Notes under the pieces: generated by a model
Told to the model about the DNA's origin: nothing
The model's database searches: none
What the model saw: only the letters and a program-made list of their open reading frames with translations
Made by a program: the position numbers and the translations under genes
Origin: a virus
Length of the DNA stretch: 35,081 nt
Virus record (IMG/VR): IMGVR_UViG_3300043469_002107
Location: 1-35,081 of that record
Reading direction: 5' to 3' (one strand)
Shown: piece by piece, positions 3,390 through 35,006 of the stretch
How positions within the stretch are numbered: the stretch's first letter is position 1
Layout: each line of letters opens with the position of its first letter

Positions 3390-3523
3390 TATGCGCTCCC
3401 CTTTTCGGAAAAAGTAAACCCGCCGCCCGCACGGCGTGATGTGGCCCCCAATGGAAAGGGCGCGGATATGCGGACGGCAGGTAAGTGGTGTGTATCCATT
3501 GAATCTTGGTCGCGGTTAGACAT
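3389..3523 (-). CDS. Small hypothetical protein linking nuclease and organiser genes
   Basis: A 44-codon frame fills exactly the gap between two larger genes. Its ATG at 3523 lies in the end of the nuclease gene (8-base overlap, ATGTCTAA), and its TAA overlaps the next ATG as TAATG. The peptide starts MSNRDQDSMDTHHLPAVR and ends AGGGFTFSEKGSA. No family is recognised. The double overlap matches the tight coupling in the rest of the operon and is the main reason to accept it. No clear ribosome-binding site is seen. Confidence 0.5.
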   Translation of the reverse strand: MSNRDQDSMDTHHLPAVRISAPFPLGATSRRAGGGFTFSEKGSA

Positions 3524-4784
3524 CACTCTTCCCCTCGACGTTATGACTGTTGGGTAAAGAGGCCCCTTGAGTCAAGACTGGTGCAACGGAATTGCCCAAC
3601 GCGCAGCGAATCATGGACTCGGCGTTTTTATCGCGCACCATCTTAAAGTACGCTTCGCCCTCGGCGTATATGCCGGCCCCGGAGAGGAGCTTTTTGACAC
3701 GGGTAGAGGCGGCAGTATCCCCCAGCTTGTGCGCCTTGCCGTAGGCTTTGGCTAGGCCGGTGACGGAGAGGGTTATCGCTTGGTCAAGGATCTCGTCGGG
3801 CACGCCAGCCTCGCGCATGACGTTCAGCGCGGCGCGGACACTGGTAAAGGTGCCCTTCCCTCGCCCATTCTGCTTATTGAACCCAGTGGGCATCATTCCG
3901 CGCTCCATCATGCCCTTGGCGACAAACTCGACGCCACCGCCCCACGGCTCGATAAACGATTTCCAGACGAAGAGGGCAGCGCCCAGCACAGCCGGATCGT
4001 TGAGCATTTCGCTGGAGTGCAGGCGCGGCAGCTTGAGAGGCCAATCCTCGCGGCGCTCCACGATTTCGGCTACCTGAACGGTGATGGCCTCGCAGCCGGC
4101 TTTATTGGCGCACCAACCGCAAAACTGGCAGGCGCGGGGGCGGCGGTGAGGGTCGGCACGCTTGGCAAGGATGCCGTAGGCCACAGCTTCGGCGGTGTCC
4201 ATGTCGATGACGTAGCTTTGCACACGGCGCGACCGGCCATATACGGTGTAGGCACGCCCTACCCGGTGCCCGCTGGCGATGAGCTTGGGCAGCAGGTAGC
4301 CGACCAACTGCGCAAAATAATCGCGGACTAAGCCAAACTTGGCATCAAAGATTATTGTCGGGCCGGCCTCCACATCGGCGGTGCCGAAGTAAAGGATCTC
4401 GAACGACTCGCCCTTAAACATGGTAACGCGCTGTTCAACGCGCAGCTCGTGCTGCTGATAGCCCAGCCCCTCGGCTATTTCATTGATCTTGGTGGCGACC
4501 CAACGCACGTCGTCGGCCTGCTTCTCGGTGATGAGAGCGAAGGCGGCGGCTCGGGCGGCGGCGTCCGGCATGTAGATCGAGGCGAGCGCAGCGTGTTGCA
4601 GGGTGCCGAGGGCTTTCGCTTCGGCTCCGGTGTCCTCGGCTTCGGCTAGGAGTTCGGCGTCAATGTCCTCGATGGATTTGCCGGTGCCCTCAAAGCAAGG
4701 GCAGTCGGACCACATCGGCCAGTTAGACGGGCCGAGAGGATGGTGAGCGGACGGAGCGGGAGGCTTGGTGAGAGTGGTGGTCAT
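3516..4784 (-). CDS. PD-(D/E)XK nuclease of the RecB/Cas4-like type, DUF2800-like
   Basis: This 422-residue protein is probably an exonuclease that resects DNA ends for phage recombination. His64 lies in GTLQH. The core reads GTADV (Asp137), IIFDAKFG (Asp147, Lys149) and AQLVGY (Gln159), which fits the RecB-family order. The cysteines match an iron-sulfur nuclease: Cys28 or Cys30 near the start (SDCPCFEG), then Cys222-x2-Cys225-x5-Cys231 in ACQFCGWCANKAGCEA. This is the pattern of Cas4 and AddB. Residues 240-422 form a C-terminal helical region typical of DUF2800-like phage proteins. The ATG at 4784 overlaps the previous stop (ATGA). It pairs logically with the annealing protein at 9619-10560. 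Confidence 0.8.
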   Translation of the reverse strand: MTTTLTKPPAPSAHHPLGPSNWPMWSDCPCFEGTGKSIEDIDAELLAEAEDTGAEAKALGTLQHAALASIYMPDAAARAAAFALITEKQADDVRWVATKINEIAEGLGYQQHELRVEQRVTMFKGESFEILYFGTADVEAGPTIIFDAKFGLVRDYFAQLVGYLLPKLIASGHRVGRAYTVYGRSRRVQSYVIDMDTAEAVAYGILAKRADPHRRPRACQFCGWCANKAGCEAITVQVAEIVERREDWPLKLPRLHSSEMLNDPAVLGAALFVWKSFIEPWGGGVEFVAKGMMERGMMPTGFNKQNGRGKGTFTSVRAALNVMREAGVPDEILDQAITLSVTGLAKAYGKAHKLGDTAASTRVKKLLSGAGIYAEGEAYFKMVRDKNAESMIRCALGNSVAPVLTQGASLPNSHNVEGKSDV

Positions 4785-5191
4785 GGGAGAATTGCGGGGT
4801 TTTCGAGGGGATGCCAGCCATAGGCGGGCGGTTGATGGAGGAGGAATAAATGGCGCATGTTGGCCACGTTCACTAAGCACTCGTCGGGCGGGTAGCACTC
4901 GACGGCCCAAAGGTAGTCATAGCCGGCCTCGGACTTGAGTCGTTGCAGTTCGTCCCAGGTGATACCGTCCTTCCAGCCACCTTGGGCGTTGAGCGCCGTG
5001 CGGCAGACGGTCAGGCGGAGGTAGCATTTATCCTGATAGACGCACAGCAGGAAGTCCTTGGATCGAAAGACGGCGATGGGTGTCGCCTTCTGGTCGTGGG
5101 GCCATTCCGAGATGGGCACCTGAACCAAGGCGGAACCGTATTCCTTGTTCTTATTGCGCAGGTAGATGCGCTTGGCCTTGAGGTCGTTCAT
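4781..5191 (-). CDS. DUF7694-like phage protein
   Basis: The 136-residue protein carries WKDGITWDELQRLKSEAG followed by AVECYPPDECLVNVANMRHL. This is the conserved half of a widespread phage family that I believe is DUF7694 (name from memory). The N-terminal 60 residues form a likely beta-rich part (PIAVFRSKDFLLCVYQDK). Its function is unknown. Members often sit in early operons beside replication and recombination genes, as here. Both ends overlap neighbouring genes by 4 bases. Confidence 0.75.
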   Translation of the reverse strand: MNDLKAKRIYLRNKNKEYGSALVQVPISEWPHDQKATPIAVFRSKDFLLCVYQDKCYLRLTVCRTALNAQGGWKDGITWDELQRLKSEAGYDYLWAVECYPPDECLVNVANMRHLFLLHQPPAYGWHPLENPAILP

Positions 5192-5768: not shown

Positions 5769-6103
5769 TTCTTGCCCTCCTTCGCATTCTGCCAGCCCTC
5801 GCGGATCTCCTTCGACGGCTTGGCGCTGCCAGTTAGCAGCAGGTCCATCTTGTCGCCGGCAGCGATCAGGGCGGAAACCCGAGCAAGCATCTGATTGTAG
5901 TTCTCCTCGTGTGCGTCGGCCCGTGAACGCTGGCGAAAGAACTCGGTGCGGTAGCCGGCCAGCTCCGTGATCTTGGCGTCCGTGGCGGCGTCGTGCTCGG
6001 CGAGGAGATTCGCCACATGCGGAAACATGAAGGGATACTTTTCGCATATCGCCTCAGTTAAGGCCAGCCGTCGGGAGATGGCCTGTGATAGTTCTTCACT
6101 CAT
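5765..6103 (-). CDS. Hypothetical helical phage protein
   Basis: The 112-residue protein (MSEELSQAISRRLALTEAIC...) is hydrophilic and mainly helical, with regions such as LLAEHDAATDAKITELAG and NYNQMLARVSALI. No family is recognised. Its ATG at 6103 lies inside the end of the methyltransferase gene (8-base overlap), and its stop overlaps the ASCH start, so the three are co-translated. It could be a small partner protein of either neighbour, but nothing in the sequence shows this. Confidence 0.7.
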   Translation of the reverse strand: MSEELSQAISRRLALTEAICEKYPFMFPHVANLLAEHDAATDAKITELAGYRTEFFRQRSRADAHEENYNQMLARVSALIAAGDKMDLLLTGSAKPSKEIREGWQNAKEGKK

Positions 6104-7163
6104 GGGTGTTTATTTCGTTGAAAGTTTGGGAGATGAATGCCGCCGCTAGTTGCGGCACTATGCTGTTTCCGTAGCCACGCAGGCGCATGACCCGCGCTTC
6201 TGCCGTGTTTTCTGCGTAGCCCGGTGTGCAAGGATCGCAGCTTGGCACCACTCCACGGGGTAGCCCTGCAACCAGCGGGGCAAGGCCGGGTTCAATCCTC
6301 CGCGCTTTTCCGTCTGCGCAGGGGATGAGGTCGAAGCGGGACCACGCATCAGTCCGCCGATCAGAAGCTCGTCCTTCCGTGCCCCGCTCCTGCTCGTGTT
6401 CCCCGCATCTGCCCATGTCGCCGCTGGGGTCGGGTATCCCACGGGTGTCAGAAACATGGCTTGGCGACTGAGTTGATCCAGCCTCACCCGCGCAGTTCCG
6501 TCTGGATTCGTTGCGTTCACCTTCTGCCCCGGCGAGTCCTTCCAGTCTCGGCTGTTCGGCGTGACCCAGCCAGCCACGTCGATCAGAGACTTCCCCGGAT
6601 TGGCTCCGCGTGCTTTCTTCGCTTCGTCCGTCTCCGGCGAGCCCCGCGTTGCATCGCACACTCCCGGCGTTGGATACCCAGAATAGACGTTGCCTGATAT
6701 GGGGCGAGCCAAGGCTGTGTGCTCCCAATACCGCCGCCCCGCAGGCGTAACCTTCTCCTTCCAGGTCTGACGATATTCCATCGAGCCAACCTTTTCCAAT
6801 AGCACTCGAAACCTGCTCCCCAAAGACCCACTCAGGGCGGCATTCGCGGATGAGATTGAAGAACACGGGCCAGAGGTGGCGCTCGTCTTTGTCTCCAAGC
6901 TGCTTCCCTGCTGTGGAGAATGGCTGGCAGGGGCAGCTGCCCGTCCAAACAGGTTTAGTTGCAGGCCAGTTTGCGAGTTGCAGGGCAAGGGACCAACCGC
7001 CGATTCCGGCAAAGAAGTGGCATTGTGCGTATTTAGTAAGCTCATGTGGCTGTATTTCGGTGATGCTGCGTTCGTCCACGTCGCCCGCCGGTATCAGCCC
7101 AGCGCGGATAAGTTCGCGGAGCCAAGCGGCGGCTTTTGGATCAAATTCGTTGTAGAAGTTCAT
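6096..7163 (-). CDS. Orphan DNA (cytosine-5-)-methyltransferase
   Basis: The 355-residue enzyme transfers a methyl group from SAM to C5 of cytosine. The SAM-binding motif I is FAGIGG (51-56). Motif IV is GSCPCQPFS with catalytic Cys79. Motif VI is GEQV (115-118). Motif VIII is HIRQRLFW (155-162). Motif X is GYGNSIVPQLAAAF near residue 335. Between about 165 and 285 is a Gly/Arg/Ser-rich variable region with repeated VS(D/N)-type and RLEG-type segments, where target recognition should lie. No restriction endonuclease is adjacent, so it probably protects phage DNA. It is longer at the N-terminus than minimal enzymes. A second open frame overlaps it. Confidence 0.93.
   Translation of the reverse strand: MNFYNEFDPKAAAWLRELIRAGLIPAGDVDERSITEIQPHELTKYAQCHFFAGIGGWSLALQLANWPATKPVWTGSCPCQPFSTAGKQLGDKDERHLWPVFFNLIRECRPEWVFGEQVSSAIGKGWLDGISSDLEGEGYACGAAVLGAHSLGSPHIRQRLFWVSNAGSVRCNAGLAGDGRSEESTRSQSGEVSDRRGWLGHAEQPRLEGLAGAEGERNESRRNCAGEAGSTQSPSHVSDTRGIPDPSGDMGRCGEHEQERGTEGRASDRRTDAWSRFDLIPCADGKARRIEPGLAPLVAGLPRGVVPSCDPCTPGYAENTAEARVMRLRGYGNSIVPQLAAAFISQTFNEINTHE
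6158..7045 (-). CDS. Candidate dual-coding frame inside the methyltransferase gene
   Basis: A 295-codon frame without stops lies wholly inside the methyltransferase gene, shifted by one base. Its start, MSLLNTHNATSLPESAVGPL, overlaps the FAGIGG region. The product has ordered features: LNLFGRAAAPASHSP, MEYRQTWKEKVTPAGRRY, GYPTP, GWVTPNSRDWKD, and LNPALPRWLQGYPVEW near the end. I recall similar predicted phage proteins (TSLPxS..., TWKxxxTPxGR, GWPTP, LNPAxSRWLMGxP), which are probably the same frame in other methyltransferase genes. That memory cannot be checked here. There is no ribosome-binding site at the ATG. It may be expressed, or it may be an artefact of conserved codons. Confidence 0.3.
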   Translation of the reverse strand: MSLLNTHNATSLPESAVGPLPCNSQTGLQLNLFGRAAAPASHSPQQGSSLETKTSATSGPCSSISSANAALSGSLGSRFRVLLEKVGSMEYRQTWKEKVTPAGRRYWEHTALARPISGNVYSGYPTPGVCDATRGSPETDEAKKARGANPGKSLIDVAGWVTPNSRDWKDSPGQKVNATNPDGTARVRLDQLSRQAMFLTPVGYPTPAATWADAGNTSRSGARKDELLIGGLMRGPASTSSPAQTEKRGGLNPALPRWLQGYPVEWCQAAILAHRATQKTRQKRGSCACVATETA

Positions 7164-9618: not shown

Positions 9619-10560
9619 TTACTTGGCTCCGATAGCTTGCAGGAAAGCGTCTTTGTGTTTCAGCACGCGGGCAGCCTGCTTGAGATTGATCTTCCTCCAG
9701 TTCTGCCCCTCGGAAATATGGCCTTCCTGGAGGAAGTAGGCGGTCGCAAGGTCGCCGTTGTCGCCGATGACCTTGGAAACCGCGTCCAGAGTATCGAGGT
9801 CCATCTCGGCAGGCGCAGCGAGTGCGGCGGGCTTGGTCGTGATGTCGATTGCACCGGCACCGGCAGCGCCAGCCGGTTTCTCCGCAGCCTCGTCAACGTC
9901 GCCGTCCGTGATCTCGGTGCCGGTAATCAGCTCATAGATCCGGGCGAGGGTCTTGCGCTTGGCTTTGCCGAGAATGGCGTCACTCCCCTGCCCTTTGTTC
10001 ACTCGAATTGAGATAACCAAAGCCGGCTCACCTTGGGCGGGTATCAACATGGATTTCCATTCCTCGGTGTTAGTCTTGCGGAACTTGAAGGCAGCGGTGC
10101 AGGAAACATGCGCCTCCTCGCCAACCATCTTCGGCACGCTCTGTGTCATGCGGAGGTCGGAGAACAGGCCGCGCTGGGACAGGCGCTTAAACATCCCCTC
10201 GAAACCTTCCTTGGTGGGATAGAACCGAGCGCCGATTACGTTGGTCTGGTTGTTGGTCAGCTCGAAGCCCTTGATTGTGGCCTCGATCAGCACCTCGCGG
10301 ACGACATCGACGGAGTAACCGCCATCGCGGTCCTTGTCGGTCTTGAACCCGAGCGGGGAACCTTGGAGCTTCAAAAACTCCTTCATTAAATCATCATCGA
10401 GCAGGTTGCGAAGGGTGTTCATCGCGTTGGCGACGGCAATCGCCTTGGAGAATTGACCCTTGCCCTCGACGAGCGAGGCGAGCCCGTTTTCAGCCGCGAA
10501 CGTGTCGAGGCGGGCGAGCTTGGTATCAAGCGTTACGATCTGACTTTCTGATTTACTCAT
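9619..10560 (-). CDS. Putative single-strand annealing protein, RecT-like
   Basis: The 313-residue protein has the look of a phage recombinase: LKLQGSPLGFKTDKD, DVVREVLIEATIKGFELTNN, QTNVIGARFYPTKEGFEGM and then a beta-rich part (HVSCTAAFKFRKT..., SIRVNKGQGSDAILGKAKRK). This order resembles RecT-type annealing proteins, which pair a resected strand with its complement. Residues 220-255 are an Ala/Pro-rich linker before a C-terminal helical tail, as often seen in such proteins for SSB contact. It pairs with the Fe-S nuclease at 3516-4784. The family call is from pattern memory and needs a profile search. The ATG at 10560 has no ribosome-binding site. Confidence 0.55.
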   Translation of the reverse strand: MSKSESQIVTLDTKLARLDTFAAENGLASLVEGKGQFSKAIAVANAMNTLRNLLDDDLMKEFLKLQGSPLGFKTDKDRDGGYSVDVVREVLIEATIKGFELTNNQTNVIGARFYPTKEGFEGMFKRLSQRGLFSDLRMTQSVPKMVGEEAHVSCTAAFKFRKTNTEEWKSMLIPAQGEPALVISIRVNKGQGSDAILGKAKRKTLARIYELITGTEITDGDVDEAAEKPAGAAGAGAIDITTKPAALAAPAEMDLDTLDAVSKVIGDNGDLATAYFLQEGHISEGQNWRKINLKQAARVLKHKDAFLQAIGAK

Positions 10561-10586
10561 GTGTTTGGTAGTTGTAGGGGAGGAAA

Positions 10587-10934
10587 TTAGTAATGGGTCT
10601 TGGTGGGTAGCGTGTTGAACCACGCGAAGAAGTCGGAGGGGGTGACGAGCACCTTACCGTTGCGGCGCTCCAGGGTGAGCTTACCCGCAATCTCGGCATT
10701 GCGGATGGGCGGGTAAGAGCACCACGGCTTGAACAGAGCGATGGGAACAGGCCGGTCATCCAGCGCCGCAAGCAGCATAGCTTGAAGGTACTCACCATGC
10801 TTGCGCATCACGTTACCCAGCTCCTCGGCGCGATTTATCTCCTTGTCGCCAATCGCCGCAGGCTGGCTATGCAGCGCCGCCTTCAACTGCTCTACCAGTT
10901 GGGCGGGAGTGGCCTTTTGCTTGAGCCGCTTCAT
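10587..10934 (-). CDS. Hypothetical phage protein, possible DNA-binding tail
   Basis: The 115-residue protein begins MKRLKQKATPAQLVEQLKAA. Its C-terminal half reads IRNAEIAGKLTLERRNGKVL, VTPSDFFAWFNTLP, which looks like a small winged-helix or excisionase-type fold with a basic turn. I cannot assign it. It sits 4 bases after the coiled-coil gene and 26 bases before the annealing-protein gene, so it is in the same operon. An excisionase role is possible but speculative, as the integrase is far away. Confidence 0.65.
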   Translation of the reverse strand: MKRLKQKATPAQLVEQLKAALHSQPAAIGDKEINRAEELGNVMRKHGEYLQAMLLAALDDRPVPIALFKPWCSYPPIRNAEIAGKLTLERRNGKVLVTPSDFFAWFNTLPTKTHY

Positions 10935-15018: not shown

Positions 15019-16329
15019 ATGCCCCCCGTAAATGACCGCAAACCCGGCGTGCCTGAAAGCCGGAAAACTGACCATGAAGGCAAGCTAGTTCGATTCTCCA
15101 CTCGTGGCTTTGGCGTCACCGTATTCCGCCAGAGCATCACCAACCGCGACGGTTCCCTTCGCTTCTCCGGTCCTTTCTACTACCAGAAGCAGGTCGCTCG
15201 GGAGATCGAGCGATTCCCCCTTGGAATCGACGCCAAGGAGGCCGAGCGGCTGGCCGATGAGATTGCCGCCTTCGTCTCCATCCCGACCAACTCCCTAGCC
15301 ATGGCCCGCACCCGGTACAACCCCCGCGCCATTCAGCGGGAAACCCACTTTGCCACCATCGGCGAGGTCATCGACGCTTACGAGAAAGCCCGCCGCATCA
15401 TCGGTCGCAATGGCGGCGAGGTGTCCGAGACGACTTTCAAATCCTATGCCCGCTGCCTCATTGCCGTGATCCGTAAGGCCGAGGCTTTCGACAAAGGCGA
15501 GGCGTTCGCCTCCTTCATCGGCCGGCAGAAGCTCGATCTCACCCGCTGGCGCAAGCTGGGAACGGACATCCTCACACCCCGTCTCGTCGCCAGCTTCAAG
15601 CAGGGCGCCTTGGCCGTCGCCGAGGGCGAGCCCGAACTTGACGAGGAGGAATCGTTGACCGCCAAGATCACCGCCGACGCGGATCTACGCTCCGCCCGAG
15701 CCATCCTTGGCAAGAACGCGCTCCGCCACTTTAAGAACTCAGGGATGTTGCTGCCTGACCTGTCAGGATTCCTCCAGGAGCCGGACTACGGAGCCAAAAA
15801 ATACTTTGAACTCCTGCCCCCTGACGTGATCGAGTCCATCATGCAGTCGTCCGGCAAGCTCCGCACCGACAACGTGGAGCTATGGCGTGCATTCTTACTC
15901 TGCGCCCATGCCGGCCTGCGCAAAGCCGAGGCCATCGCCTTCCAGCTTGATTGGCTGCGCCATGAGGAGCGGCACATGATTTACGTCACGATTGGTGGGA
16001 AGTTCGCGCCAAAGGCCGGCCACGGTCGCAAGGTCGCCGTGGAGCCCTGGGTGTTCGACGCGCTCAAGGCACTAGGGCCGGTGCAGGACGCCGGCTCACT
16101 GGAAAAGCTCAAGGATTGGGTGGCCGCGCTCATACCCAAGCAAAGCAGGGTAAACAAGACGGTCCACGAACTGCGCAAGCTGTGGGTGTCGATGAAGGCC
16201 AAGACCGAGGGACTTATGGCAGCACAGCAGCAGGCCGGCCACCGTGACCCAAAGACCACCACAACGCATTATGGTGATTCGCTTATGGCCGAACGACTCC
16301 TTCCTTACTGGAAAAACCCACCGGCTTAA
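15019..16329 (+). CDS. int: Tyrosine integrase
   Basis: The 436-residue recombinase inserts the phage genome at tRNA-Gln. Catalytic residues are in order: Arg301 (AHAGLRKAEA), Lys332 (FAPKAGHGRK), His383 and Arg386 (VHELRKLW), His408 (QAGHRDP) and nucleophile Tyr418 (THYGDS). Residues 110-240 form the core-binding domain, and the N-terminal 100 residues are an arm-binding part. A tRNA fragment 148 bases upstream gives its target. Its TAA stop shares the TTAA palindrome with the converging gene at 16326. The codon use and GC content match the phage. Confidence 0.95.
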   Translation: MPPVNDRKPGVPESRKTDHEGKLVRFSTRGFGVTVFRQSITNRDGSLRFSGPFYYQKQVAREIERFPLGIDAKEAERLADEIAAFVSIPTNSLAMARTRYNPRAIQRETHFATIGEVIDAYEKARRIIGRNGGEVSETTFKSYARCLIAVIRKAEAFDKGEAFASFIGRQKLDLTRWRKLGTDILTPRLVASFKQGALAVAEGEPELDEEESLTAKITADADLRSARAILGKNALRHFKNSGMLLPDLSGFLQEPDYGAKKYFELLPPDVIESIMQSSGKLRTDNVELWRAFLLCAHAGLRKAEAIAFQLDWLRHEERHMIYVTIGGKFAPKAGHGRKVAVEPWVFDALKALGPVQDAGSLEKLKDWVAALIPKQSRVNKTVHELRKLWVSMKAKTEGLMAAQQQAGHRDPKTTTTHYGDSLMAERLLPYWKNPPA

Positions 16330-30944: not shown

Positions 30945-32099
30945 TTAGTAGGTGTTGAAGCTCGATAAATCTGCGTAGCTGAGAGTCGAAGATGAGCTGG
31001 CCACCAGTGCGTCCATCGCTGAAACGAGCCCCGAGATATTGGAGGCGAGGAAGCTCCCCCCGTCGTCGTTGGTGCCCGGACCTGTCCAAGCATTTCCAAG
31101 AAATACGAAGTTGCCATTGATGACCGTGCCGAAGGGCGAGCCCGAGTCGCCGCCCACCCACTCCATGTACCATGAGGTGAGTTCAGCGGGGCGGGTGTAG
31201 GAAAGCCATGTGCCCCCATCGCCCACACCCATGCCAACCTTCCACGATGCGCCTACGCGCTTCCACTTCATGACGGGCACTCCTTGGCGCAGCTTCTGGG
31301 CTGGTGCTGGCTTGTATTTGTTGGCGAACGATGATGGGAGAATCTTGGCTGGGGTGATATCCGTAAAATCGGAGGCAAAGCATACAAGTGTTAGATCGCT
31401 CCCCAGGCTGGTTGAACCCGTCACGGAACGCGTTACCGCATTGCCAGAGTTGTCGTGGCAAGTGTAGCTGGTATCCACTCCAACATGCGATGCGACGACG
31501 GCGAAGCGTGGGGCGATTAAAGCGCCCTGCTGCCAACCGTTCGCAGCGCCTGTGATGATGCACGATAGGTCAACTGAGTTTGCCCAAATCGTGCCACTAC
31601 GGGCGCTGCCCGAGAGAAAATTCTGCGTTGTGTCCGAAGCCGTCTTGCCCGCCACGGCGGCGATGAACCAGTCATAGCAGTGCTTGGCTAGGGAACCCGT
31701 GGCGAAGCCTGTCACGATTAAGGCTGGGCTAAAGCTGACAAAATCAATTGCCGTGCGTACCTGCAAAACGAACTTCCCAAAAGCCGCGTTCACAAGCGAG
31801 GCTCCATTCGACACTCGAGTGAGTTGGCCCGTCGTCGTGTTCAGGGTAGCAACCGAGGGTGTCAAATTTATCAACGTGGGGGCGACCCCATCCAAAACGG
31901 CGGTCGCTGTAACCACGCCCTCCGTGGTCATACTTGTTGTATTGGACAAGACCAAGACGTCCTCATCGTACACGGTTAGTTGTCCATCCGTGTTACCACC
32001 CGTGTAATGCACGGTAGGCCTGCTCGTTAGCGTGAAGGGATAGTCGCTGATGTTGTGTCCACGCGACTTAACCCCAGTGCCATGACGACGGGTGGTCAT
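30945..32099 (-). CDS. Trypsin-like serine protease-like protein in the tail module
   Basis: The 384-residue protein has a C-terminal half built like an S1 (chymotrypsin-fold) protease. His205 lies in APRFAVVASHVG. Asp235 lies in LGSDLTLVCFASDF. Ser319 lies in EWVGGDSGSPFG, the classic GDSGSP motif. Order and spacing fit the S1 triad. The first 170 residues are beta-rich (TSRPTVHYTGGNTDGQLTVY) and look like a fibre or virion-anchoring part. There is no signal peptide, so it is probably virion-associated. Possible roles are trimming virion proteins or cutting host surface proteins. It overlaps the upstream sulfotransferase-like gene (ATGA). Confidence 0.7.
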   Translation of the reverse strand: MTTRRHGTGVKSRGHNISDYPFTLTSRPTVHYTGGNTDGQLTVYDEDVLVLSNTTSMTTEGVVTATAVLDGVAPTLINLTPSVATLNTTTGQLTRVSNGASLVNAAFGKFVLQVRTAIDFVSFSPALIVTGFATGSLAKHCYDWFIAAVAGKTASDTTQNFLSGSARSGTIWANSVDLSCIITGAANGWQQGALIAPRFAVVASHVGVDTSYTCHDNSGNAVTRSVTGSTSLGSDLTLVCFASDFTDITPAKILPSSFANKYKPAPAQKLRQGVPVMKWKRVGASWKVGMGVGDGGTWLSYTRPAELTSWYMEWVGGDSGSPFGTVINGNFVFLGNAWTGPGTNDDGGSFLASNISGLVSAMDALVASSSSTLSYADLSSFNTY

Positions 32100-32875
32100 A
32101 CAGTTGGCTTCGGGTATCGAAGTTTAATCGCCGCGACCTGCGCTTGGATGGTATCGAAGGCATCAGGTCGGCCCTCGCCAATTTTTTCGCGCAGGGCGAT
32201 GGTGATTGCGTCCGGGGTGATCCCTTCGTTGATGTAAGCCATTCGGCGCATCTCGGCGTAGTCTTTGGCTTCTGGTTGCGGCGGCGGGTTTACCGCTACA
32301 GCTCCGACTACCCGTCGGGCTACCTGTCCAGCCTCGGTTATTGAATCAAAAAGCGTAACATCATTCGCATAGATGGCGGTGACTCGGACCCTCTGAGCCT
32401 CGGTCAACACCAGGGGTTCACCCTTTGCTTCATTGATCGTGGGTAGCGGCCATGCAAATCCCGCCTCAGCGGCTAGCGATTCGAGATGGTCGGGGAACTT
32501 GTACAATTTGGTCGTGTTCAGGATCAGGTCCGACTGCGGGAGTAGGTGCGAATTCACCCAGTCGCCGGACTCGATTGCGGTAAGCACTGCGTCCACATCA
32601 TAGCGCCCTATGAACTGCATCGCAGATACGAAGCGGGCAAGCGGCTCACGCACGGTGAGGAGTACCACCTCGGGGTTCTTGATCTTAGGGCAAATGCTCT
32701 GCCACATGATGCGGTTTGGTCCGAGGCCATCGTCGGGATAAGTGATGCGCAATGAAGCGACATCAGGTGTTACCATAGCGAGAGCGCGAGACAGTGAGGA
32801 CGAGCCCACCTTTCGGTTGAAGGCGAGGCCCGTGGAATCGCTGATCCTGAAATAGATGTTGGGAAATTCTTTCAT
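32096..32875 (-). CDS. Sulfotransferase-like domain fused to a phage tail-assembly tail
   Basis: The 259-residue protein has a PAPS-sulfotransferase pattern. Near residue 20 is NRKVGSSSLSRAL, like the 5'-phosphosulfate loop. Residues 76-85 are REPLARFVSA, like the 3'-phosphate-binding RxPxxRxxSA motif. Then come HLLPQSDLILNTTKLYKFPD and VTAIYANDVTLFDSI, matching the later parts of family-2 enzymes. After a Pro-rich linker, residues 205-259 read DYAEMRRMAYINEG... and end VAAIKLRYPKP, a tail-assembly motif common in phages. The start is ATG 32875; a TTG at 32890 would add five residues. It sits between a fibre and a protease gene. Confidence 0.65.
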   Translation of the reverse strand: MKEFPNIYFRISDSTGLAFNRKVGSSSLSRALAMVTPDVASLRITYPDDGLGPNRIMWQSICPKIKNPEVVLLTVREPLARFVSAMQFIGRYDVDAVLTAIESGDWVNSHLLPQSDLILNTTKLYKFPDHLESLAAEAGFAWPLPTINEAKGEPLVLTEAQRVRVTAIYANDVTLFDSITEAGQVARRVVGAVAVNPPPQPEAKDYAEMRRMAYINEGITPDAITIALREKIGEGRPDAFDTIQAQVAAIKLRYPKPTV

Positions 32876-32882
32876 GGTAAAA

Positions 32883-35006
32883 TCAGCCAATTACGACGTA
32901 GCCCTTAGAGTTTGCGATAGAGGGTGTATCCCCAGAAACACCGGGGTTACCAACAACCAAGATAAAACCCGTGCCGTTAGCCAAGTCGCTGTACATCTGG
33001 TCTAAAGCTGCGGCGTTTAACGCGCAATTTTGAGCAGCTATGGCAGCGGCGCCGGAGTAGCCGCTGGAGTAGTATTGTCCGTTTATGGCCGAACCTATAA
33101 CACGGATCGAAGCAAGAGCGGCGTTGTACTGGAGGCGCAGTCTGGTCAACCCGCTCAACCCCGTGCAGCTGAACGACGTGAGTTGGTTGTGGTCGAGTTG
33201 CAGGATTGTCAACGAGGAGCTCAACCCCTCGCCGCTGAACGACGTGAGTTGGTTGTTGTCGAGTTGCAGGATTGTCAACGAGGAGCTCAACCCCTCGCCG
33301 CTGAACGACGTGAGTTGGTTGTTGACGAGTTGCAGTCTGGTCAACCCGCTCAACCCCGTGCAGCTGAACGACGTGAGTTGGTTGTGGTCGAGTTCCAGGA
33401 CTGTCAACGAGGAGCTCAACCCCGTGCTGCTGAACGACGTGAGTTGGTTGTTGACGAGTCCCAGGATTGTCAACCCGCCCAACCCCTCGCCGCTGAACGA
33501 TGTGAGTTGGTTGTTGTCGAGATACAGGCTGGTCAACGAGGGGCTCAACCCCGTGCTGCTGAACGACGTGAGTTGGTTGTTGCTGAGTTGCAACCCGGTC
33601 AACCCGCTCAACCCCGCGCCGCTGAACGACGTGAGCTGGTTGTCGTTGAGGCTCAGCGAGCCCAACCCGCCCAACCCTGCGCCGCTGAAAGACGTGAGCT
33701 GGTTGTTGGCGAGATACAGAAATCTATTACCCGTACCGAATGGGGCGATGTCGGGGGTAGTAAATTTGGTCAACCCCTCGCCGCTGAACGATGTGAGTTG
33801 GTTGTTGTCGAGGCGCAGTCTGGACACCCCGCCCAACCCTGCGCCGCTGAACGACGTGAGTTGGTTGTTGTCGAGGCGCAGCGAGCCCACCCCGCCCAAC
33901 CCCTCGCCGCTGAACGATGTGAGTTGGTTGTTGTCGAGATCCAACCAACTCACCCCGCCCAACCCTGCGCCGCTGAACGACGTGAGCTGGTTGTTGCTGA
34001 GGCGCAGCTCGATCGAGCCCACCCCGCTCAACCCCGCGCCGCTGAACGACGTGAGCTGGTTGTCGTTGAGATACAGAAATCTCAACCCGCTCAACCCCGT
34101 GCAGCTGAACGACGTGAGTTGGTTGTAGTTGAGTTTCAGGACTGTCAACGAGGAGCTCAACCCCCCCCTGCTGAACGACGTGAGTTGGTTGTTGTCGAGT
34201 TCCAGGATTGTCAACCCGCTCAACCCCGTGCAGCTGAACGATGTGATCTGGTTGTTGGCGAGTTGCAGGATTGTGATACTCCCACTTACGGTAGCACCAC
34301 CAGAGCCTACCGACATTATGCCGAAAGCGCGTAATCCGCTACCACTAGGCACAGTTAGAGTGAAGGTACTGTTAGCAGACCCACTACCCGCCTGCGTCCC
34401 AAGAGATCCGTCAGGGTTAATCAACCGAGCGTAACCTGTTGTTGTTGTTAAAGAAAATGTAAAACCGGTAATTCTGATCGTCGCAAAGTAAGCAGTGCCT
34501 GATGAATAAAACGGTCCTTGTAGTGCAGCGATAAGCCTATCGCCTAATTTAGATGCGACTGAGTAGGCAGTCTCTGCGGAAGCCGACCCCGCACTGGTAG
34601 TTGTCCCCGCACTGGTAGTTGGTTTGCCCCGCACCGTTACACCGTCACCCAAGCGGTACTCAATGGCCGTGGGTGCAGTTAGAGAATTTACCAACGCACA
34701 CAACTCCCCCAACGCGGGCACCACGTTATCCGACTCCAGCATCATGCGCCCAATGATCGGTCCCACCAGATCGCCGTTGGCGTCGAGTACTGGCACATTT
34801 CCGGCCGAAGATCCGGCGTTAAGCACAGCGGCAGTGCCGAGGCCCAGCGTTGTGCGGGACGCGCTGGCGTCGGCCTGCGTGAGTAGCGATCGCCCAAAGC
34901 TCGTCGTCGTAAGCGCGGCGATTGCGGTCAGGTCGGAGTCGAGCGGCTGGCAGGCAGCCTGCGCGGCGGCCAGCGCAGACATTTTAGCTAATTCAAAAGA
35001 GGGCAT
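32883..35006 (-). CDS. Leucine-rich-repeat tail fibre / receptor-binding protein
   Basis: The 707-residue protein starts with a phage fibre segment (LDSDLTAIAALTTTSFGRSL, RTTLGLGTAAVLNAGSS). Residues 243-622 are 17 leucine-rich repeats, each with N-x-Q-(L/I)-TSFS and spaced mostly 20-23 residues. One repeat has an insert of about a dozen residues (LTKFTTPDIAPFGTGNRF). The last 85 residues cap the stack (LNAAALDQMYSDLANGTGFI, ending GYVVIG). LRRs make curved binding faces, so this is probably a host-surface receptor-binding fibre. No signal peptide or membrane segment is seen. The repeats are nearly identical and likely to change number by recombination. Confidence 0.8.
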   Translation of the reverse strand: MPSFELAKMSALAAAQAACQPLDSDLTAIAALTTTSFGRSLLTQADASASRTTLGLGTAAVLNAGSSAGNVPVLDANGDLVGPIIGRMMLESDNVVPALGELCALVNSLTAPTAIEYRLGDGVTVRGKPTTSAGTTTSAGSASAETAYSVASKLGDRLIAALQGPFYSSGTAYFATIRITGFTFSLTTTTGYARLINPDGSLGTQAGSGSANSTFTLTVPSGSGLRAFGIMSVGSGGATVSGSITILQLANNQITSFSCTGLSGLTILELDNNQLTSFSRGGLSSSLTVLKLNYNQLTSFSCTGLSGLRFLYLNDNQLTSFSGAGLSGVGSIELRLSNNQLTSFSGAGLGGVSWLDLDNNQLTSFSGEGLGGVGSLRLDNNQLTSFSGAGLGGVSRLRLDNNQLTSFSGEGLTKFTTPDIAPFGTGNRFLYLANNQLTSFSGAGLGGLGSLSLNDNQLTSFSGAGLSGLTGLQLSNNQLTSFSSTGLSPSLTSLYLDNNQLTSFSGEGLGGLTILGLVNNQLTSFSSTGLSSSLTVLELDHNQLTSFSCTGLSGLTRLQLVNNQLTSFSGEGLSSSLTILQLDNNQLTSFSGEGLSSSLTILQLDHNQLTSFSCTGLSGLTRLRLQYNAALASIRVIGSAINGQYYSSGYSGAAAIAAQNCALNAAALDQMYSDLANGTGFILVVGNPGVSGDTPSIANSKGYVVIG
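33141..34280. repeat. Tandem LRR-coding repeats (about 60-69 bp units)
   Basis: About 17 near-identical units encode the LRR region; most are 60-69 bp, always a multiple of 3. Two successive units, offset exactly 66 bp (33201 and 33267), are identical across the whole unit, a mark of recent duplication. The periodicity also keeps long frames open on the plus strand; these are not genes. Confidence 0.9.

Follow-up and report, generated by a model that had tools for sequence, protein, structure and literature searches.

A candidate phage tail fibre with leucine-rich repeats built from duplicated DNA units

A 707-aa protein of a phage carries a leucine-rich repeat (LRR) array whose units are copies of duplicated (or homogenised) DNA, and the residues that vary most among these units lie on a predicted strand whose free side would form the concave face of the solenoid. 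The protein is encoded at 32883-35006 on the minus strand of an IMG/VR record (IMGVR_UViG_3300043469_002107). The window, which is the whole stretch of 35,081 bases analysed here, spans this record, which is classed as linear and so is possibly a fragment. The presence of an integrase (15019-16329), a DnaB-type helicase, and a major head protein indicates that it probably belongs to a temperate tailed phage. We consider it fairly probable that the protein is a phage fibre or adhesin whose duplicated LRR array can gain or lose units, whose concave residues are under selection, and which could follow host receptors without a reverse transcriptase (RT).

Architecture of the LRR protein

A single base separates the ATG of the LRR gene from the TAA stop of a further ORF, which is cut off where the record ends, 75 bp upstream of the LRR gene. 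Pfam profiles match the protein strongly (LRR_4, E=1.4e-38; LRR_8, E=4.4e-35), the AlphaFold2 model contains a tandem LxxLxLxxN beta-solenoid, and Foldseek aligns this model to LRR structures, so that profile and predicted structure together show an LRR fold. The model was built from four aligned sequences and has a pLDDT mostly between 80 and 97 in its LRR part.

Four parts can be distinguished on the minus strand. The N-terminal attachment-like region (residues ~10-78; 34775-34979) resembles known tail fibres: the PHROGs tail fiber family phrog_36707 matches residues 10-76 (E=2.2e-5), and residues 19-78 (60 aa) share 46% identity with the HMO-2011 phage tail fiber protein. Directly before the repeats stands an N-cap beta domain (TTTGYARL...SGSIT; residues ~166-242; 34281-34511), for which AlphaFold2 predicts six strands and PHROG/Pfam assign no function. 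The 17 LRR units follow, with the consensus LxxLxLxxNQLTSFSxxGLxx (33153-34280); the array is split by an irregular 33-aa unit 8 carrying a EGLTKFTTPDIAPFGTG insertion (33732-33830), at which the pLDDT dips (residues 414-426). A degenerate unit 18 and a C-terminal cap (NCALNAAALDQMYSDL...NPG...SIA..KGY; 32883-33152) complete the protein; used alone as a query, this cap retrieved no phage match, and by eye it is similar to the ending of one phage relative, L013. The homology of the N-terminal region and the location of related genes in tail modules (see below) support the view that the 707-aa protein is a tail fibre or receptor-binding protein.

Repeat units and their common DNA origin

The sequence-only reading of this DNA had proposed 17 near-identical, recently duplicated units, two of them identical at a 66-bp offset. 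The ORF indeed holds 17 units matching NQ[LI]TSF, followed by a degenerate eighteenth (NAALAS). They are spaced by 21 aa (10 spacings), 22 aa (5), 23 aa (1), or 33 aa (1), and Tandem Repeats Finder reports periods of 63/66/129/132/195 across 33137-34274. Near-identity is true of few pairs: the DNA identity of the 51-nt unit cores averages 78.4% and ranges from 62.7 to 96.1. An exact-repeat search found the proposed identical pair as a direct tandem repeat 67 nt long, with an offset of 66, in the region of units 15-17 (33192-33258 and 33258-33324, together 33192-33324), and a further exact pair of 63 nt at offset 195 (33137-33199 and 33332-33394, spanning 33137-33394). These are the longest exact copies in the array.

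The codons carry the evidence for duplication. Leu is encoded by CTC at position -3 in 17/17 units and by CTG at -5 in 15/17, whereas Ser is encoded by AGC at +6 in 17/17 and by TCG at +4 in 16/17 (positions are numbered relative to the conserved Asn of NQ). When unit pairs share an amino acid in a framework column, they use the same codon in a fraction of 0.875, against 0.329 +/- 0.020 expected from random codon choice according to the phage's own usage (2000 simulations, maximum 0.408). Such codon identity lies far beyond codon bias, and the units therefore descend from duplicated or homogenised DNA rather than from convergence; the duplication proposed earlier is thus borne out. The strand half and the tail half of the units are moderately correlated (Mantel r=0.33, p=0.003), a value at which whole-unit duplication and divergence or exchange within units are not separable. 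A 434-aa antisense ORF opposite the repeats (33030-34334, plus strand) is most likely a by-product of the repeat codon pattern.

Variable positions, predicted structure, and selection

Variation among the units is concentrated in a few columns. The entropies are highest at -6 (2.77 bits), -4 (2.73), and -2 (2.04), followed by +8 (1.81), -7 (1.78), -8 (1.57), +7 (1.55), and -1 (1.32), and the units hardly differ in any other column between -5 and +10. The AlphaFold2 model assigns positions -6 to -4 to a strand in 17/17 units and positions -3 and -2 in 10/17, and a second short strand is formed at +4 to +6. The variable residues at -6, -4, and -2 are thus strand residues that alternate with invariant Leu. 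In LRR geometry, residues alternating with the buried Leu of LxxLxLxxN face the concave side. The strand assignment combined with this general rule places residues -6 to -2 on the parallel strand, the free side of which would be the concave face. By contrast, the variable +7/+8 pair (GE, GA, CT, or ST) comes after the second strand, on what is in the model the opposite side of the solenoid.

These placements divide the earlier claim, according to which both the substitutions before NQ and the GEG/GAG/CTG/STG part would vary the concave face, with structure prediction suggested as a check. The first half agrees with the model, since D/A/S/V/N and Y/H/N/D occur where the exposed strand ends, but the most variable positions, -6 and -4, had been missed; the second half is wrong, since +7 and +8 fall past the second strand and so on the far side of the solenoid.

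Between pairs of units, nonsynonymous divergence at -7, -6, -4, -2, and -1 reaches 0.472, compared with a synonymous divergence of 0.134 in the framework. The ratio of 3.5 (unit bootstrap 2.5-6.0) is to be read as an indication rather than as a formal test, multi-hit codons being saturated and units non-independent. Synonymous divergence by the Nei-Gojobori method is also raised at the exposed columns (0.374). However, pairs with the same amino acid at these columns have a codon identity of 0.869, like framework sites, which speaks for selection rather than for a mutational hot spot at these columns. The array combines a synonymously homogeneous framework with a few hypervariable exposed codons, the pattern associated with concerted evolution. 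These data support diversifying change on the predicted concave face of the array.

Phage relatives and changes in unit number

The N-cap is common to four phage contigs (L013, L015, L016, and L038), which probably represent three phages and carry roughly 6-14 units. Read by eye, there are ~6-7 units in L013, 7-8 in L015/L016, and ~14 in L038. L015 and L016, with 99.99% identity, do not differ in their arrays. The LRR locus of L013 comes after tail-tube-like genes, that of L015 follows a J-like central tail fibre protein at a distance of two genes, and in L038 the N-cap is joined to a collagen-like shaft. The array of L013 is fairly homogeneous, with a mean unit DNA identity of 73%, whereas those of L015 (50%) and L038 (53%) are old and diverged. 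Searches of IMG/VR with the LRR protein, the major head protein, and a 646-aa structural protein of the studied phage retrieved no relatives, and the major head protein retrieved none among GenBank phages. The near-exact repeat DNA pattern found no match in viral or bacterial collections. The search of bacterial genomes yielded LRR proteins of weak similarity, none of them recognisable as a prophage fibre.

Changes in unit number were found in a second family of phage LRR fibres, whose cap starts with TFITSK. This cap is distantly like that of the studied phage (hhalign probability 53%, E=1.3e-4), so that the comparison of copy numbers is made by analogy, with unit counts taken from metagenome assemblies. 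L032 and L034 carry 31 and 23 LRR units, respectively, whereas their downstream genes are 96.1% and their upstream genes 89.6% identical. L023 has 15+6 units in two genes and L030 has 20 in one, together with an additional, separate LRR-like gene of 6 units; their downstream genes are 97.3-99.1% and their upstream gene 83.5% identical, and high identity sets in 9-17 bp past the end of the LRR gene. L022 has 33 units in one gene, and its downstream gene is 95.8% identical to that of L023. Unit-level alignment of L032/L034, L023/L030, and L023/L022 reveals no simple one-event history, the units being interspersed. L034 (5971-8691) has three 63-nt units in a row without a single difference (exact repeat of 177 nt, offset 63) and thus shows a fresh expansion in a further LRR fibre of phages.

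The expectation from the sequence-only reading that relatives would differ in repeat number is therefore matched in this family (31 vs 23, and 21 vs 20 vs 33 units). Near-clonal contigs (L030/L031, L024/L025, L026/L027/L028, and L021/L022) have the same arrays across their shared length. This agreement suggests that the assemblies are reproducible, and it means that turnover is not rapid enough to make all assemblies differ. Polymorphism in unit number was thus observed between related phages of the TFITSK family, whereas the studied phage is known from a single genome, in which we infer gain and loss of units by analogy.

Alternative explanations and proposed mechanism

The most serious competitor, which we nevertheless regard as rather unlikely, is an ordinary LRR adhesin: an array that arose by duplication but whose repeat number now stays effectively constant owing to folding and function, whose strand variation is plain surface divergence, and in which copy number plays no role in host range. 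It would account for the identical arrays of near-clonal relatives and for the old, diverged arrays of L015 and L038 (50-53%), and variable strand residues are typical of LRR proteins generally. It fits less well with the exact 67-nt and 63-nt copies, with an exposed nonsynonymous divergence that exceeds the synonymous divergence of the framework, and with unit numbers that differ between close relatives in the TFITSK family. A different role altogether, that of a lysogenic-conversion or secreted host-interaction protein of a prophage rather than a virion fibre, appears improbable. The integrase makes such a role conceivable in a probably temperate phage, and proteins of the same fold include secreted internalins and Leptospira LRR proteins, but the N-terminal tail-fibre similarity speaks for the virion, as do the position of the gene upstream of, and on the same strand as, structural genes including that of the major head protein, and the occurrence of the relatives' LRR genes within tail modules or joined to collagen-like shafts.

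It is very improbable that the diversity comes from a diversity-generating retroelement with its RT beyond the recovered fragment. The record is linear and ends just upstream of the LRR gene, and the codons at -1 and -2 are NAC/VNC, which adenine mutagenesis could produce. However, those at -6 and -4 include TGG, GAG, TCG, CGC, and GGG and differ in their third positions, and are thus not reducible to A-substitution; unit lengths differ too, and variation extends across 17 units rather than being confined to one terminal variable repeat. The sequence-only reading had seen no signature of such an element, and a PF00078 search found no RT in the 35 kb of this linear, possibly fragmentary record.

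Repeat turnover combined with diversification is the reading that these data support, with some points to be set against it: turnover in the studied phage is deduced from a within-array comparison of one genome, near-clonal relatives have equal unit numbers, and ordinary LRR evolution also yields variable exposed residues. The fibre would consist of an N-terminal attachment region, a beta-sheet cap, a solenoid of 17-18 LRRs, and a C-terminal cap. As the codon identity shows, one or a few units were tandemly duplicated again and again to form the array. Unequal recombination or slippage between repeats of more than 60 bp could then keep the framework alike while adding or removing units, and selection, as the divergence ratios support, would retain substitutions at those strand residues that point to the concave side, the putative receptor-binding surface. 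Changing the number and order of units with different concave residues might allow the phage to keep pace with its host's changing surface receptors with no need of a reverse transcriptase.

Comparison with known systems

LRR tail proteins and repeat-based variation of fibres are already known. For the vibriophage P. lipares, the available text describes an LxxLxLxxN tail-module protein that exceeds all others in diversity among genomes and virome, and the weak hhpred match of this protein was read as a possible acquisition from coral (PMC10945359). It shares with the studied protein its nature as a phage tail-module LRR protein, but that text presents no unit-level DNA duplication or concave-face analysis (PMC10945359). 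In crAss-like phages, a tail-associated protein contains tandem BACON-domain repeats that arose by sequential domain duplication and were proposed to bind the host; both cases involve duplicated tail-associated repeats, of BACON domains there and of LRRs here (PMC6949934). As stated in a title, duplication of a small domain in the T4 tail-fibre adhesin expands phage host range (Tetart et al. 1996, cited in PMC9603124). That adhesin is a different one, and its host-range effect is experimental, whereas the fibre described here is known from its sequence. Leptospira LIC10831, LIC11098, and LIC12759 and Listeria internalin A belong to the same solenoid class by sequence and fold, but they are bacterial and have neither the phage N-terminal region nor the cap.

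The closest mechanism is that of the HNWD WD40 repeats of Podospora, which show concerted evolution, a changing repeat number, and few hypervariable interaction-surface codons under diversifying selection; these repeats are, however, >80% identical and belong to a fungal NLR sensor (PMC12222747). Short reads misassemble HNWD-type repeat arrays (PMC12222747), and short-read phage assemblies may likewise misstate fibre length. A search of largely open-access literature found no account of phage LRR fibres that combine DNA duplication at the level of units with diversification of the concave face. Tentatively, LRR fibres might constitute a recurrent RT-free diversification device of phages, in which recombination between 60-bp repeats lengthens, shortens, and reorders the array of units, selection diversifies the concave residues, and hypervariable loci arise between near-identical flanking genes, following a logic like that of the fungal HNWD repeats or lamprey LRR receptors; we hold this generalisation to be possible but doubtful. 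The LRR scaffold is already in use for engineered binders. If repeat turnover changes binding, phages could vary their receptor-binding surfaces with homologous repeats alone.

Other genes of the record

The 334-aa protein encoded at 9619-10623 had been taken, from resemblance by eye, as a candidate RecT-like recombinase acting on the repeats. This candidate was dropped: profile scans gave it no support, with E values up to 1 allowed in Pfam and up to 0.01 in PHROGs, its sole NCBIfam match is irrelevant (E=0.16), and it has no phage relatives. An exonuclease-family gene (3516-4910, minus strand; phrog_69, E=1.2e-10; DUF2800) may belong to a phage recombination system. Immediately following the LRR gene, a 264-aa gene (32096-32890, minus strand) contains the sulfotransferase-like motifs KVGSSSL and VREPLARF, with a Pfam Sulfotransfer_2 match at just E=0.29. 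In a 384-aa protein (30945-32099, minus strand), the motif GDSGSP hints at a serine protease of the trypsin-like type, and profile and PDB sequence searches with this protein gave no match. Finally, the gene at 6096-7163 (minus strand) encodes a C5 cytosine DNA methyltransferase (Pfam DNA_methylase, E=9e-19).
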